In this document: piece after piece, positions 11,590 through 15,146 of the stretch | Layout: each line of letters begins with the position of its first letter | Numbering within the stretch: position 1 is the stretch's first letter | Assembly (NCBI RefSeq): GCF_014196425.1 | Contig: NZ_JACIDR010000002.1 | Span: forward strand, 62,001-126,000 | Length of the DNA stretch: 64,000 nucleotides | Direction of reading: 5' to 3' | From: Hansschlegelia beijingensis | Lineage (GTDB): Bacteria; Pseudomonadota; Alphaproteobacteria; Rhizobiales; Methylopilaceae | The notes under the pieces: generated by a model | What the model saw: only the letters and a program-made list of their open reading frames with translations | Databases searched by the model: none | What the model was told of the DNA's origin: nothing | Translations under genes and position numbers: made by a program

Positions 11590-12066
11590 TCAGAGATTGC
11601 GGAGCAGCGCGCGTCCGACGTCGTTGTTGGCTTCCACCAGCCGGTGCAGCTGGGTGATGAACAACCGGCGCTCTTCCTCCGGAAGCGGCTCGATGAGCCG
11701 GCGATGGGCGCGTTCAAGCGCGTCCTGCATCTCGATGATCAGCGTCTGCCCGGCCTCCGTGAGGTAGCTCCGGCGGATGCGTCGGTCCTTCTCTGTCGCC
11801 TCGCGCCGCACGAGGCCGCGCGCCTCGAGCCGCGAGAGCACGTTCGAGGTCGTCGTTCGGTCAATCCCGATGTCCGCTGCGAGCGACACCTGGTCCGCCC
11901 CGGGCCGCATCAGGAGCACCTGCAGAACGCTGGATTGCACCGGCGTGGTGCCATAGGCCTCGCACTCCTGAAGGTAGATCGACACATAGATCTGGTGGAG
12001 ACGGCGGATCATGAAGCCGGGGCGCGCGAACAACCCCTCGGCCTTCGATTTGGCATGCTCGTTCAA
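11590..12066 (-). CDS. MarR-family transcriptional regulator
   Basis: A winged-helix repressor that probably senses an aromatic ligand. The preferred start is the TTG at 12066, with a GGAG 6 bases upstream, giving 158 residues; an ATG at 12258 would add 64 residues with no family resemblance. The dimer helices (GFMIRRLHQIYVSIYLQECE), recognition helix (DRTTTSNVLSRLEARGLVRR) and wing (KDRRIRRSYLTEAGQ) are clear. It is divergent from the ubiD operon, and two palindromic sites lie between them. Downstream on the same strand are the RND pump genes. Confidence 0.85.
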   Translation of the reverse strand: MNEHAKSKAEGLFARPGFMIRRLHQIYVSIYLQECEAYGTTPVQSSVLQVLLMRPGADQVSLAADIGIDRTTTSNVLSRLEARGLVRREATEKDRRIRRSYLTEAGQTLIIEMQDALERAHRRLIEPLPEEERRLFITQLHRLVEANNDVGRALLRNL

Positions 12067-12316
12067 CGCGCGCTCCGTCCGCAAGTCGTCGCCCCGGCTT
12101 CCGACAGTCGTTTCGGCTTGTGATCCATCCGAAATAGGCTCTCCGCCGGCGCACGTTCGGCTGGGGCCGCAGGGGCTCCAGACCCTTGAGTCAAAGGCCC
12201 TTCGGGCCGGGAGCGGCTCAGGCGGCCCTACTATGACGCAGCCGTCATCGCCCCGCACCGGGGTCGGTTGCGCCCTATTTTGGCAGCGGCGCCCAACAAA
12301 CGAGATTGACGACCCC

Positions 12317-12340
12317 GCATATCCTCACAATGCTGACGAT
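12317..12340. promoter_or_regulatory. Second, degenerate copy of the marR-ubiD operator
   Basis: Read on the minus strand this 24-base segment agrees at 20 positions with the core of the perfect palindrome at 12377-12412 (both begin ATCGTCAGCAT). The centres are about 66 bp apart, roughly six helical turns, which is suitable for cooperative binding of two dimers. The proposal rests on sequence only. Confidence 0.5.
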
Positions 12341-12376
12341 CAGGAGCAGGCCAAGGTGAACGCCTTGGCTCTTCTC

Positions 12377-12412
12377 TAAACCATATCGTCAGTATGCTGA
12401 CGATATGGTTTA
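12377..12412. promoter_or_regulatory. 36 bp palindromic operator between marR and ubiD
   Basis: Two perfect 16-base arms (TAAACCATATCGTCAG and its reverse complement) are separated by four bases. It is AT-rich relative to its surroundings, has no T-tract on either side, and lies 155 bp before the ubiD start, so an operator is more likely than a terminator. A MarR dimer is the obvious candidate to bind it. Confidence 0.7.
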
Positions 12413-12567
12413 GATCGTCACAGCCAGGCGGCGCGCATGTCTCTTGCGCGCCTCAGATGGCGGCTGCGCCAGTGGATGCCCCGCCGGTGCTGCTGGGCGC
12501 CGCACGACGGCCGAGCGGCGTTGGGTTTTGCCGCCTGTTGTTCAGGACGCGCTTCGATGGAGTTGAA

Positions 12568-13971
12568 GTGAGCCATTTCGACAATGCCGACCGGCAGAGC
12601 CTTCGCGGGTTCCTGAACATGGTTCGGAACCGGTTCCCCGACGAGTACCTGCAGATCTCCGGGAGGATCGAGACTCTCTACCAGTCGACCTCGATCGTGT
12701 TCGAGCTCGAGCGCGCCGGCCGCAGCCCGGTCGTCATGTTCGACGACATCGGCGGCAAGGGCATGCCTTGCGTCACCAACGTGGCGGCGAGCCGCAAGCT
12801 CCTCGCGGCGTGCCTCGACGTCGCCGAGCAGGATCTTCCGACCGTCTTCCGCGATCGCAGCCAGCGCTACCTGCCCTGCGAGACGGTCGACGAAGCCCCC
12901 TGGAACGACATCGTTCTCGAAGGCGACGACGTCGACCTGACGAGGCTGCCGATCCCGCACCAGTTCACGGTCGACGCCGCGCCCTACATCACGGCCGGCC
13001 AGATCACGGCCCGCGATCCGAAGACCGGCGTGGACACCACCGGCTTCCACCGCCTGATGCTCAAGGGCAAGAACCGGCTGGGCGTGTCGCTGCATTCGCG
13101 CCGCCGCATGCATGAGTTCCACCGCCGCGCCGAAGAAATGGGCCAGTCATTGCCCGCCGCGATCACCATCGGCGTGCATCCGCTCCATTACATGGGCTCG
13201 ATGACCTACGCCTATCCGCCGCATGTGCGGAAATTCGAGATCATCGGCGGCCTGTTCGGCGAGCCTTATCGGCTCGCCCGGTGCGGCGTGCAGGACCTCG
13301 AGGTGCCGGCGGGCGCGGAGATCATCATCGAGGGCGAGATCCTCGCCGACGTTCGCGAGCCGGAGGGGCCGTTCGGCGAATTCACCGGCTACGCCTCCTA
13401 CAGGAGCACCCAGAACGTCTTCGTCGCGCACCGGATCAGGATGCGTCGCGACGCCATGTTCCACAGCGTCGTCGCCGGCATGGCGAAGGATCACATCCTG
13501 ATCTCGTGCATCACCCGCGAGGGCGAGATCCTCAACGCGCTGAAGCGCAACATTCCGAACGTCAAGGCCGTCCACGTGCCGCACTCGACCTGCGGCGCCT
13601 TCATGGCGGTGATCTCGCTGAAGAAGATCGCCGAGGGCGAGCCGCAGATGGCCGCCATGGCGGCGCTCAGCACAGAGCTCTACACAAAGTACGTCATCGT
13701 CGTGGACGACGACGTCGACATCTTCGACATGAACGACGTCTTCTGGGCGATCGCGACCCGCGTGCGGGCGGAGAAGGACATCTTCTTCGTGCCCGGCTGC
13801 AAGGGCGCGATCCTCGACCCGAGCTCGGATCCCGAGAACTTCACGCTCACGAAGATGGGCATCGACGCCACGCGCCCCACCGGCCGCGACTTCGCGGAAC
13901 GCCTCGTCATCTCCGACGAGGAGCGGGCGAAGGCCCGGGAGATCCTCGAACGCGCAGGCGTACGGCTCTGA
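12568..13971 (+). CDS. ubiD: UbiD-family prenylated-FMN-dependent decarboxylase
   Basis: This enzyme reversibly decarboxylates an aromatic or alpha,beta-unsaturated acid using prenyl-FMN made by UbiX. The GTG at 12568 is preferred: GGAG lies 5 bases upstream and the product then begins near the usual SLRGFLNMV helix, giving 467 residues. An ATG at 12394 lies inside the operator and adds 58 unrelated residues. The family motif EGPFGEFTGYASY, holding the catalytic glutamate, is near residue 265. The ubiX gene is two genes downstream. Substrate is not identifiable; hydroxybenzoate or vanillate-type acids are plausible given the MarR regulator and efflux pump. Confidence 0.92.
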   Translation: MSHFDNADRQSLRGFLNMVRNRFPDEYLQISGRIETLYQSTSIVFELERAGRSPVVMFDDIGGKGMPCVTNVAASRKLLAACLDVAEQDLPTVFRDRSQRYLPCETVDEAPWNDIVLEGDDVDLTRLPIPHQFTVDAAPYITAGQITARDPKTGVDTTGFHRLMLKGKNRLGVSLHSRRRMHEFHRRAEEMGQSLPAAITIGVHPLHYMGSMTYAYPPHVRKFEIIGGLFGEPYRLARCGVQDLEVPAGAEIIIEGEILADVREPEGPFGEFTGYASYRSTQNVFVAHRIRMRRDAMFHSVVAGMAKDHILISCITREGEILNALKRNIPNVKAVHVPHSTCGAFMAVISLKKIAEGEPQMAAMAALSTELYTKYVIVVDDDVDIFDMNDVFWAIATRVRAEKDIFFVPGCKGAILDPSSDPENFTLTKMGIDATRPTGRDFAERLVISDEERAKAREILERAGVRL

Positions 13972-14016: not shown

Positions 14017-14571
14017 ATGGGAGAGCAAGATGCGCGGCCGCGTGACGGAGAGCCTCGCCTCGTGAGCGCGCCCGATCCAGCGGAGGCGCCGTCGCTGCGC
14101 GACTTCGCCGTCGCGACCTATGGCGGCGACGGCGTGCAGGCCGCGTGTCTGACGCTGCAGGACGCGCATGGGCTTGACGTGAACGTCGTGCTGTTCGCGG
14201 CCTGGGCCGGCGCTGTCGCGGGCCGGGCGCTCGGCCCCCAGGACGCCGCCGCGGCGTCCGAGGCGGTGCGCCGCTGGCGCGAGGAGGTCGTGCGGCCGCT
14301 GCGGTCCGTCCGGCGCGCCCTCAAGTCCATGGAGCCGCTGGCCGACGCGCGCGCGGCGCTCCGGGCCCGGGTCAAGGCGGCGGAGCTCGAAGCCGAATTG
14401 CTGCAGCTGGACGCGCTCGAGGGTTTCGCGGCCAAGCTCGGTCGCCCCTCCGCGCCATGCGCCGCGCTTGTGAGCTCCAACCTCTCGGCCGTCGCCGACG
14501 GCCTTCCTGCAGACGCCCAGGACGCGGTCGCGGCGATCGCGGCCGCCTGCCACTCCGGATCAACCGCATGA
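14017..14571 (+). CDS. TIGR02444/DUF2390-family protein between ubiD and ubiX
   Basis: A 184-residue protein of unknown function. The core is typical of TIGR02444: a FAVATYGGDGVQAACLTLQD segment, then GLDVNVVLFAAWAGAVAGRAL, and a WREEVVRPLRSVRRALK helix. The start is uncertain: ATG at 14017, or GTG at 14062 (15 codons later) closer to the conserved core. It lies 45 bp after ubiD and its stop overlaps the ubiX start by 4 bp (ATGA), so it is translated with the decarboxylase genes. A helper role for UbiD/UbiX is inference from position only; the small BsdD/YclD-type subunit found in some decarboxylase operons is a different family. Confidence 0.8.
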   Translation: MGEQDARPRDGEPRLVSAPDPAEAPSLRDFAVATYGGDGVQAACLTLQDAHGLDVNVVLFAAWAGAVAGRALGPQDAAAASEAVRRWREEVVRPLRSVRRALKSMEPLADARAALRARVKAAELEAELLQLDALEGFAAKLGRPSAPCAALVSSNLSAVADGLPADAQDAVAAIAAACHSGSTA

Positions 14572-15146
14572 AACGCCTCATCGTCGCGATCACCGGCGCC
14601 TCAGGGGCGATCTATGGCGTCCGCGCGCTGGAGATGCTGCGCGACGTCGGCGTCGAGACCCACCTCATCCTCACGGTCGCCGGCATCCGGACGATCAACG
14701 CGGAGCTCGATCTCGGCGTCGACGCCGTGCGGGCGCTCGCGGACCACACCCACAACCCCAAGGACATCGGCGCGTCGATCTCGTCGGGCTCCTACGTGAC
14801 GGACGGCATGCTGGTGGCCCCCTGCTCGATCAAGAGCCTGAGCGGCATCGCGCATTGCTACAATGACGAGCTGGTGGTCCGCGCCGCGGATGTGTGCCTC
14901 AAGGAGCGCCGCCGCGTCGTCCTGCTGCTGCGCGAGACGCCGTTCCACCTCGGCCATATCGAGCTGATGGCGCAGGCCACCCGCAACGGCGCGATCGTGA
15001 TGCCGCCCGTGCCGGCCTTCTACCACCGCCCGGCGACGATCGACGACATCGTCAACCAGACGGTCGCCCGGGCGCTCGACCTGTTCGGCGTCTCCGTGCA
15101 GGCGATCCGGCGCTGGAACGGCCGAGCCTCCATCGGGGCGGCCTAG
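14568..15146 (+). CDS. ubiX: UbiX-family flavin prenyltransferase
   Basis: This enzyme attaches a dimethylallyl group to FMN, producing the prenyl-FMN cofactor that UbiD needs. It has 192 residues, the normal size. The FMN-binding start MKRLIVAITGASGAIYGVRA, the SSGSYVTDGMLVAPCSIKSL segment and RRVVLLLRETPFHLGHIELM are diagnostic. Its ATG overlaps the stop of the TIGR02444 gene. Because it is coupled to ubiD, it probably serves this dedicated decarboxylase rather than only ubiquinone synthesis. Confidence 0.95.
   Translation: MKRLIVAITGASGAIYGVRALEMLRDVGVETHLILTVAGIRTINAELDLGVDAVRALADHTHNPKDIGASISSGSYVTDGMLVAPCSIKSLSGIAHCYNDELVVRAADVCLKERRRVVLLLRETPFHLGHIELMAQATRNGAIVMPPVPAFYHRPATIDDIVNQTVARALDLFGVSVQAIRRWNGRASIGAA

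Follow-up and report, generated by a model that had tools for sequence, protein, structure and literature searches.

A conserved pair of predicted MarR operators upstream of a ubiD decarboxylase operon in Hansschlegelia beijingensis

Two copies of a 20-bp operator-like core were found between a marR gene and a ubiD operon in a 64-kb window of the H. beijingensis genome (the window being the whole stretch of 64,000 nucleotides that was analyzed). The pair is real, conserved and probably functional, ordinary in kind and new in its detail. Judged from the sequence, both sites are very probably operators for the adjacent MarR-family protein, with the ubiD-DUF2390-ubiX operon as their target. The distal site would block the promoter, the near-by perfect palindrome would act as an auxiliary operator, and an aromatic carboxylate would release the repressor. 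The sites themselves, their conservation and the pairing of MarR genes with the motif across proteobacteria were computed directly. The features of the locus are as follows.

11590 to 12066, minus strand: marR, a MarR-family repressor gene with a probable TTG start at 12066
12306 to 12334, plus strand: candidate sigma-70-type ubiD promoter, TTGACG (12306-12311), 17 nt, AATGCT (12329-12334)
12321 to 12340, no strand: 20-bp core of the distal operator (site 2), placed at 12317-12340 in the earlier note
12375 to 12414, no strand: proximal operator (site 1), a 40-bp palindrome with perfect 18-bp arms
12568 to 13971, plus strand: ubiD, a prFMN-dependent (hetero)aromatic acid decarboxylase gene with a GTG start, assigned by family models
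14017 to 14571, plus strand: gene for a DUF2390/TIGR02444 protein, a candidate accessory, between ubiD and ubiX
14568 to 15146, plus strand: ubiX, a flavin prenyltransferase gene whose start overlaps the stop of the DUF2390 gene
L018 15342-15698, L019 15300-15659, L020 6213-5806 and L022 6209-5874: DUF2390 genes of four related loci

The open frame of marR extends to 12258, and conservation among orthologues begins just past the 12066 start. Its product carries a winged-helix MarR domain that scored above curated cut-offs (PF12802, MarR_2, E 3.6e-12; PF01047, MarR, E 1.8e-10), and a PDB search returned PcaV, 3cjn (a MarR of unknown function), SlyA, HosA and CouR as the nearest solved structures. 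UbiD has all three of its domains (UbiD_N, UbiD and UbiD_C), and its closest solved structure is 6h6v, which we take to be HmfF, a furan-dicarboxylate decarboxylase. The VdcBCD models stayed below their curated cut-offs (VdcC, 284 bits vs 650; VdcB, 232 vs 290), while ubiX scored 254.8 bits with its own model (cut-off 188). The DUF2390/TIGR02444 gene adjoins ubiD/ubiX in five of five related loci, the window included, in an order that varies. By analogy with the role of VdcD for VdcC, its product may be an unrecognized accessory subunit.

Site 1 reads TCTAAACCATATCGTCAG-TATG-CTGACGATATGGTTTAGA, with TATG at its center, and is the longest inverted repeat within the window, the runner-up having 12-bp arms. 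The 36-bp palindrome reported in the earlier note at 12377-12412 is real and nested within it, but the arms measure 18 bp rather than 16. The conserved 20-bp core of site 1 occupies 12385-12404, and its center lies 173.5 bp 5′ of the ubiD GTG. A second copy had been claimed at 12317-12340 (GCATATCCTCACAATGCTGACGAT), and comparison with 12381-12404 confirmed it: 20 of 24 positions are identical, in the same orientation and at an offset of 64 bp, which corresponds to 6.1 turns at 10.5 bp per turn and agrees with the six or so helical turns first estimated. By a simple uniform-base probability, the chance that such a match occurs on one strand or the other in 300 bp is about 2e-6. The distal site is itself symmetric at only 14 of 20 positions. 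In a pattern search of the 3.66-Mb genome, the core ATCGTCAGNNNNCTGACGAT was found exactly once, at site 1, and site 2 is among the few matches to it with two mismatches. A refined consensus, with up to three mismatches allowed, was found at six places in the whole genome, two of which are sites 1 and 2, and these are the only two convincing copies that the genome contains. No copy was found before the RND pump genes, as had been noted earlier, so the pump probably lies outside the regulon. Between the two operators, at 12350-12370, there is also a short inverted repeat, GCCAAGG-TGAACG-CCTTGGC, which is absent in Chenggangzhangella methanolivorans.

The outer arms of the palindrome (12375-12384 and 12405-12414) are unique to the window genome among the sites compared. 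They were set aside as part of the operator because they are conserved in no related site, and the functional operator would therefore be the 20-bp core. Template-switch correction of a quasi-palindrome is one possible origin of arms so perfect.

To locate a promoter, a -35 element was sought 15-19 nt from the central hexamer of each site in the ubiD direction. The distal operator was found to overlie the spacer and the -10 of the candidate ubiD promoter. The distal site of C. methanolivorans has the same -35 and the same spacing (TTGACG-17-CATACT), and the single-site species carry TTGAGC-16-CATACT (Hansschlegelia zhihuaiae) and TTGCGC-16-CATGCT (Methylopila turkensis). No plausible -35 in the ubiD direction was found behind the proximal site of either the window or C. 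methanolivorans. A generic sigma-70 scan did not call the candidate because its -10 fits the consensus at only three of six positions, so the promoter is proposed from its position and conservation. The earlier note had described one perfect palindrome and one degenerate copy. The ranking that this implies is probably inverted, since the distal copy overlies the likely promoter and the palindrome lies downstream of it; in terms of layout, the "degenerate" copy is probably the promoter operator and the perfect palindrome a downstream auxiliary operator.

This ubiD is carried by three of the 12 other genus members searched, namely M. turkensis, H. zhihuaiae and C. methanolivorans. In all four same-genus genomes with this ubiD, the core ATCRTCAGYATRCTGAYGAT lies upstream of it, with the center of the nearest copy 68-174 bp from the start codon; the cores of the three relatives are ATCGTCAGCATGCTGATGAT, TTCGTCAGCATACTGACGAT and ATCATCAGTATGCTGATGAT, respectively. 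Conservation before ubiD in close relatives, on which the earlier note had made its proposal depend, was thus found in every related genome with this ubiD, and it supports the MarR-linked operators predicted for the operon. Conservation of both sites extends to C. methanolivorans, where another copy (ATCATCAGCATACTGATTAT) lies 62 bp upstream of the first, but not to M. turkensis and H. zhihuaiae, which have one site each. When the window is aligned with C. methanolivorans, the TTGACG -35 and both sites align, and the distal copies stand in the same register. Among the matches listed, the nine genus members without this ubiD gave no YATR-centered match with 0-1 mismatches.

The position of marR varies. 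M. turkensis and H. zhihuaiae carry it before ubiD and on the same strand, C. methanolivorans has it in convergent orientation at the other end of the ubiD operon, and in the window the two genes are divergent. With marR in three different places and the core always before ubiD, the motif stays with ubiD. The gene divergent from ubiD in C. methanolivorans encodes a methylguanine-DNA methyltransferase, and with such a neighbor both sites there plausibly serve ubiD. The operons also differ in content. Between their ubiD and ubiX, M. turkensis and H. zhihuaiae (L018 8759-15860; L019) carry genes for a TAXI solute-binding protein, a DctM TRAP permease and an amidohydrolase, none of which was found in the window. 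The ubiD of C. methanolivorans (L020 6311-7738) is split over three frames, which reflects either assembly indels (the genome is about 88% complete) or a decayed gene.

Beyond the genus, a motif-only scan of GTDB genomes returned at least 119 stretches, and tblastn identified a relative of the window MarR in 17 of the 119 listed. The E value was below 1e-20 in 16 of these, the remaining one ending at the locus edge, and in all 17 the relative lies within about 160 bp of the motif, in loci of up to 8 kb. The 17 include the ubiD loci of M. turkensis and H. zhihuaiae, and the rest come mainly from beta- and alphaproteobacteria. Also among the matches listed is the ubiD locus of C. methanolivorans, with its marR outside the stretch; most of the motif matches listed have no MarR relative nearby. 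The strong motif is essentially unique in the window genome and in seven others. Pfam assigned the neighbors of several motif/MarR loci to FAD-binding hydroxylases, one of them with a phenol-hydroxylase C-terminal domain, and to HpaB-type hydroxylases. In the opposite direction, a MarR-first scan was run with the Leptothrix MarR as query. Of its 30 relatives, 15 have the motif upstream (up to three mismatches), while the reversed motif, used as a control, gave 0 of 30; one of the 30 rows lacks independence, since it was through the motif that the Leptothrix MarR had been found. Within the window's own order, a recognizable site lies near only a few of the MarR relatives below 50% identity. No such site was found near a MarR paralogue in the window genome (44% identity), nor near many MarR relatives in the order. 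Several genus members have a MarR paralogue (43% identity) beside ATCGTCATGGTACTGACGAT or a near copy of it, with the same ATCGTCA half-sites. This ATCGTCATGGTACTGACGAT (L192 4962-4981) lies just past the 3′ end of the paralogue gene and ahead of apparent ABC transporter ATPase genes, and the gene divergent from the paralogue reads as a GMC-type oxidoreductase. A search of plasmid records found no similar stretch.

From this arrangement we infer binding, promoter activity, repression as the sign of control, cooperativity and an inducer. A MarR dimer would bind the 20-bp core ATCRTCAGYATRCTGAYGAT. On the distal site (12321-12340), it would cover the promoter spacer and the -10 and so block RNA polymerase. 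The perfect palindrome core at 12385-12404, 64 bp downstream and on about the same helical face, would be an auxiliary operator that strengthens repression, either as a roadblock or through cooperation between two MarR dimers. A (hetero)aromatic carboxylate, probably the substrate of UbiD or a close relative of it, would release MarR. The near-integral helical spacing in two species (64 and 62 bp) would fit cooperativity, and two other species are single-site; a single site in M. turkensis and H. zhihuaiae implies that the operator pair is not essential to control.

The two sites might instead have separate duties, the distal one controlling ubiD and the perfect palindrome controlling marR by autoregulation, without cooperation. 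Regulators of the MarR type are frequently autoregulated (PMC5487221), marR and ubiD are divergent in the window, and on its minus strand site 1 offers CATACT, for which GTGACG at 19 nt would be a poor -35. However, several points make this division unlikely: the same pair is present in C. methanolivorans, whose marR is located elsewhere and does not diverge from ubiD; no motif precedes marR in M. turkensis or H. zhihuaiae; and in the window the probable start of marR is over 300 bp away from site 1.

It is far less probable that the 40-bp palindrome is not an operator but works at the RNA level, as a hairpin of the ubiD leader with a role in attenuation, stability or processing. A transcript begun at the distal promoter would indeed contain the palindrome, folded into a long perfect stem, and the leader folds far better than its shuffles (z -6.0). 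Yet conservation is limited to the 20-bp core, which recurs as a DNA motif before MarR genes across proteobacteria; there is no U-run after the palindrome; and an Rfam search of the leader gave one sub-threshold match and none at gathering score. The least likely reading, by a small step, is that another regulator uses the sites and that the MarR neighbor is coincidental, as the motif pairs with this MarR clade in both search directions, mostly with no ubiD present.

The best reading remains that MarR represses a catabolic decarboxylase and that an aromatic acid serves as inducer, and HosA of E. coli would be its closest functional precedent. The target of HosA is, we assume, a non-oxidative hydroxyarylic acid decarboxylase operon. 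In both systems, the window case being predicted, a MarR protein represses a decarboxylase operon of UbiD/UbiX type and an aromatic acid releases it. They differ in that HosA matches the window MarR only at E 2.8e-9 (PDB search), the third gene in the window operon is DUF2390 rather than VdcD, and the window has two sites 64 bp apart. The effector of HosA is 4-hydroxybenzoate, and its palindromic site is 14 bp long (PMC6261655).

The nearest solved structure to the window MarR is the protocatechuate-responsive PcaV of Streptomyces coelicolor (E 3.4e-13, with an aligned PG-x-RRL segment). Unlike the window MarR with its ubiD operon, PcaV presumably targets protocatechuate catabolism. The best NCBIfam model for the window MarR is Saro_0803, the repressor of nov1 in Novosphingobium, but at 59.8 bits against a cut-off of 200 the window protein is not a member. 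The Saro_0803 operator, GCAATA------TATTGC, lies near the -10 box (PMC10046596), a location like that in the window, although the sequence differs. CouR of Rhodococcus jostii, also a MarR repressor, has an inverted repeat as its operator at divergent promoters of aromatic catabolism, but its site (cATTGA-N5-TCAATg) lies over the -35 and its ligand is a CoA ester (PMC4737184). The likeness to MobR of Comamonas testosteroni, a 3-hydroxybenzoate-responsive MarR, is one of gene context. Betaproteobacterial loci have the motif between a MarR relative and FAD hydroxylases, one of which, in Variovorax, is of the phenol-hydroxylase type. The N-terminus of this Variovorax protein looks MobA-like.

While switches of this kind are well known, this one appears to be undescribed, and no paper with any of six core variants of the motif was found in a literature search that covered few subscription journals. 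We regard as evenly poised a broader proposal, in which an alpha-/betaproteobacterial MarR clade keeps one 20-bp operator code, ATCRTCAGYATRCTGAYGAT, and re-uses it for FAD hydroxylases, HpaB and UbiD decarboxylases, usually with one target per genome, part of the ubiD branch adding a second site, in helical phase with the promoter operator and downstream of it. An uncharacterized MarR clade would thereby gain a predicted operator sequence and target operon, and the locus would offer a ready sensor/promoter pair for a (hetero)aromatic acid. A single common reporter could serve to compare ligand specificity, since the species have the operator code in common and differ in their target enzymes.
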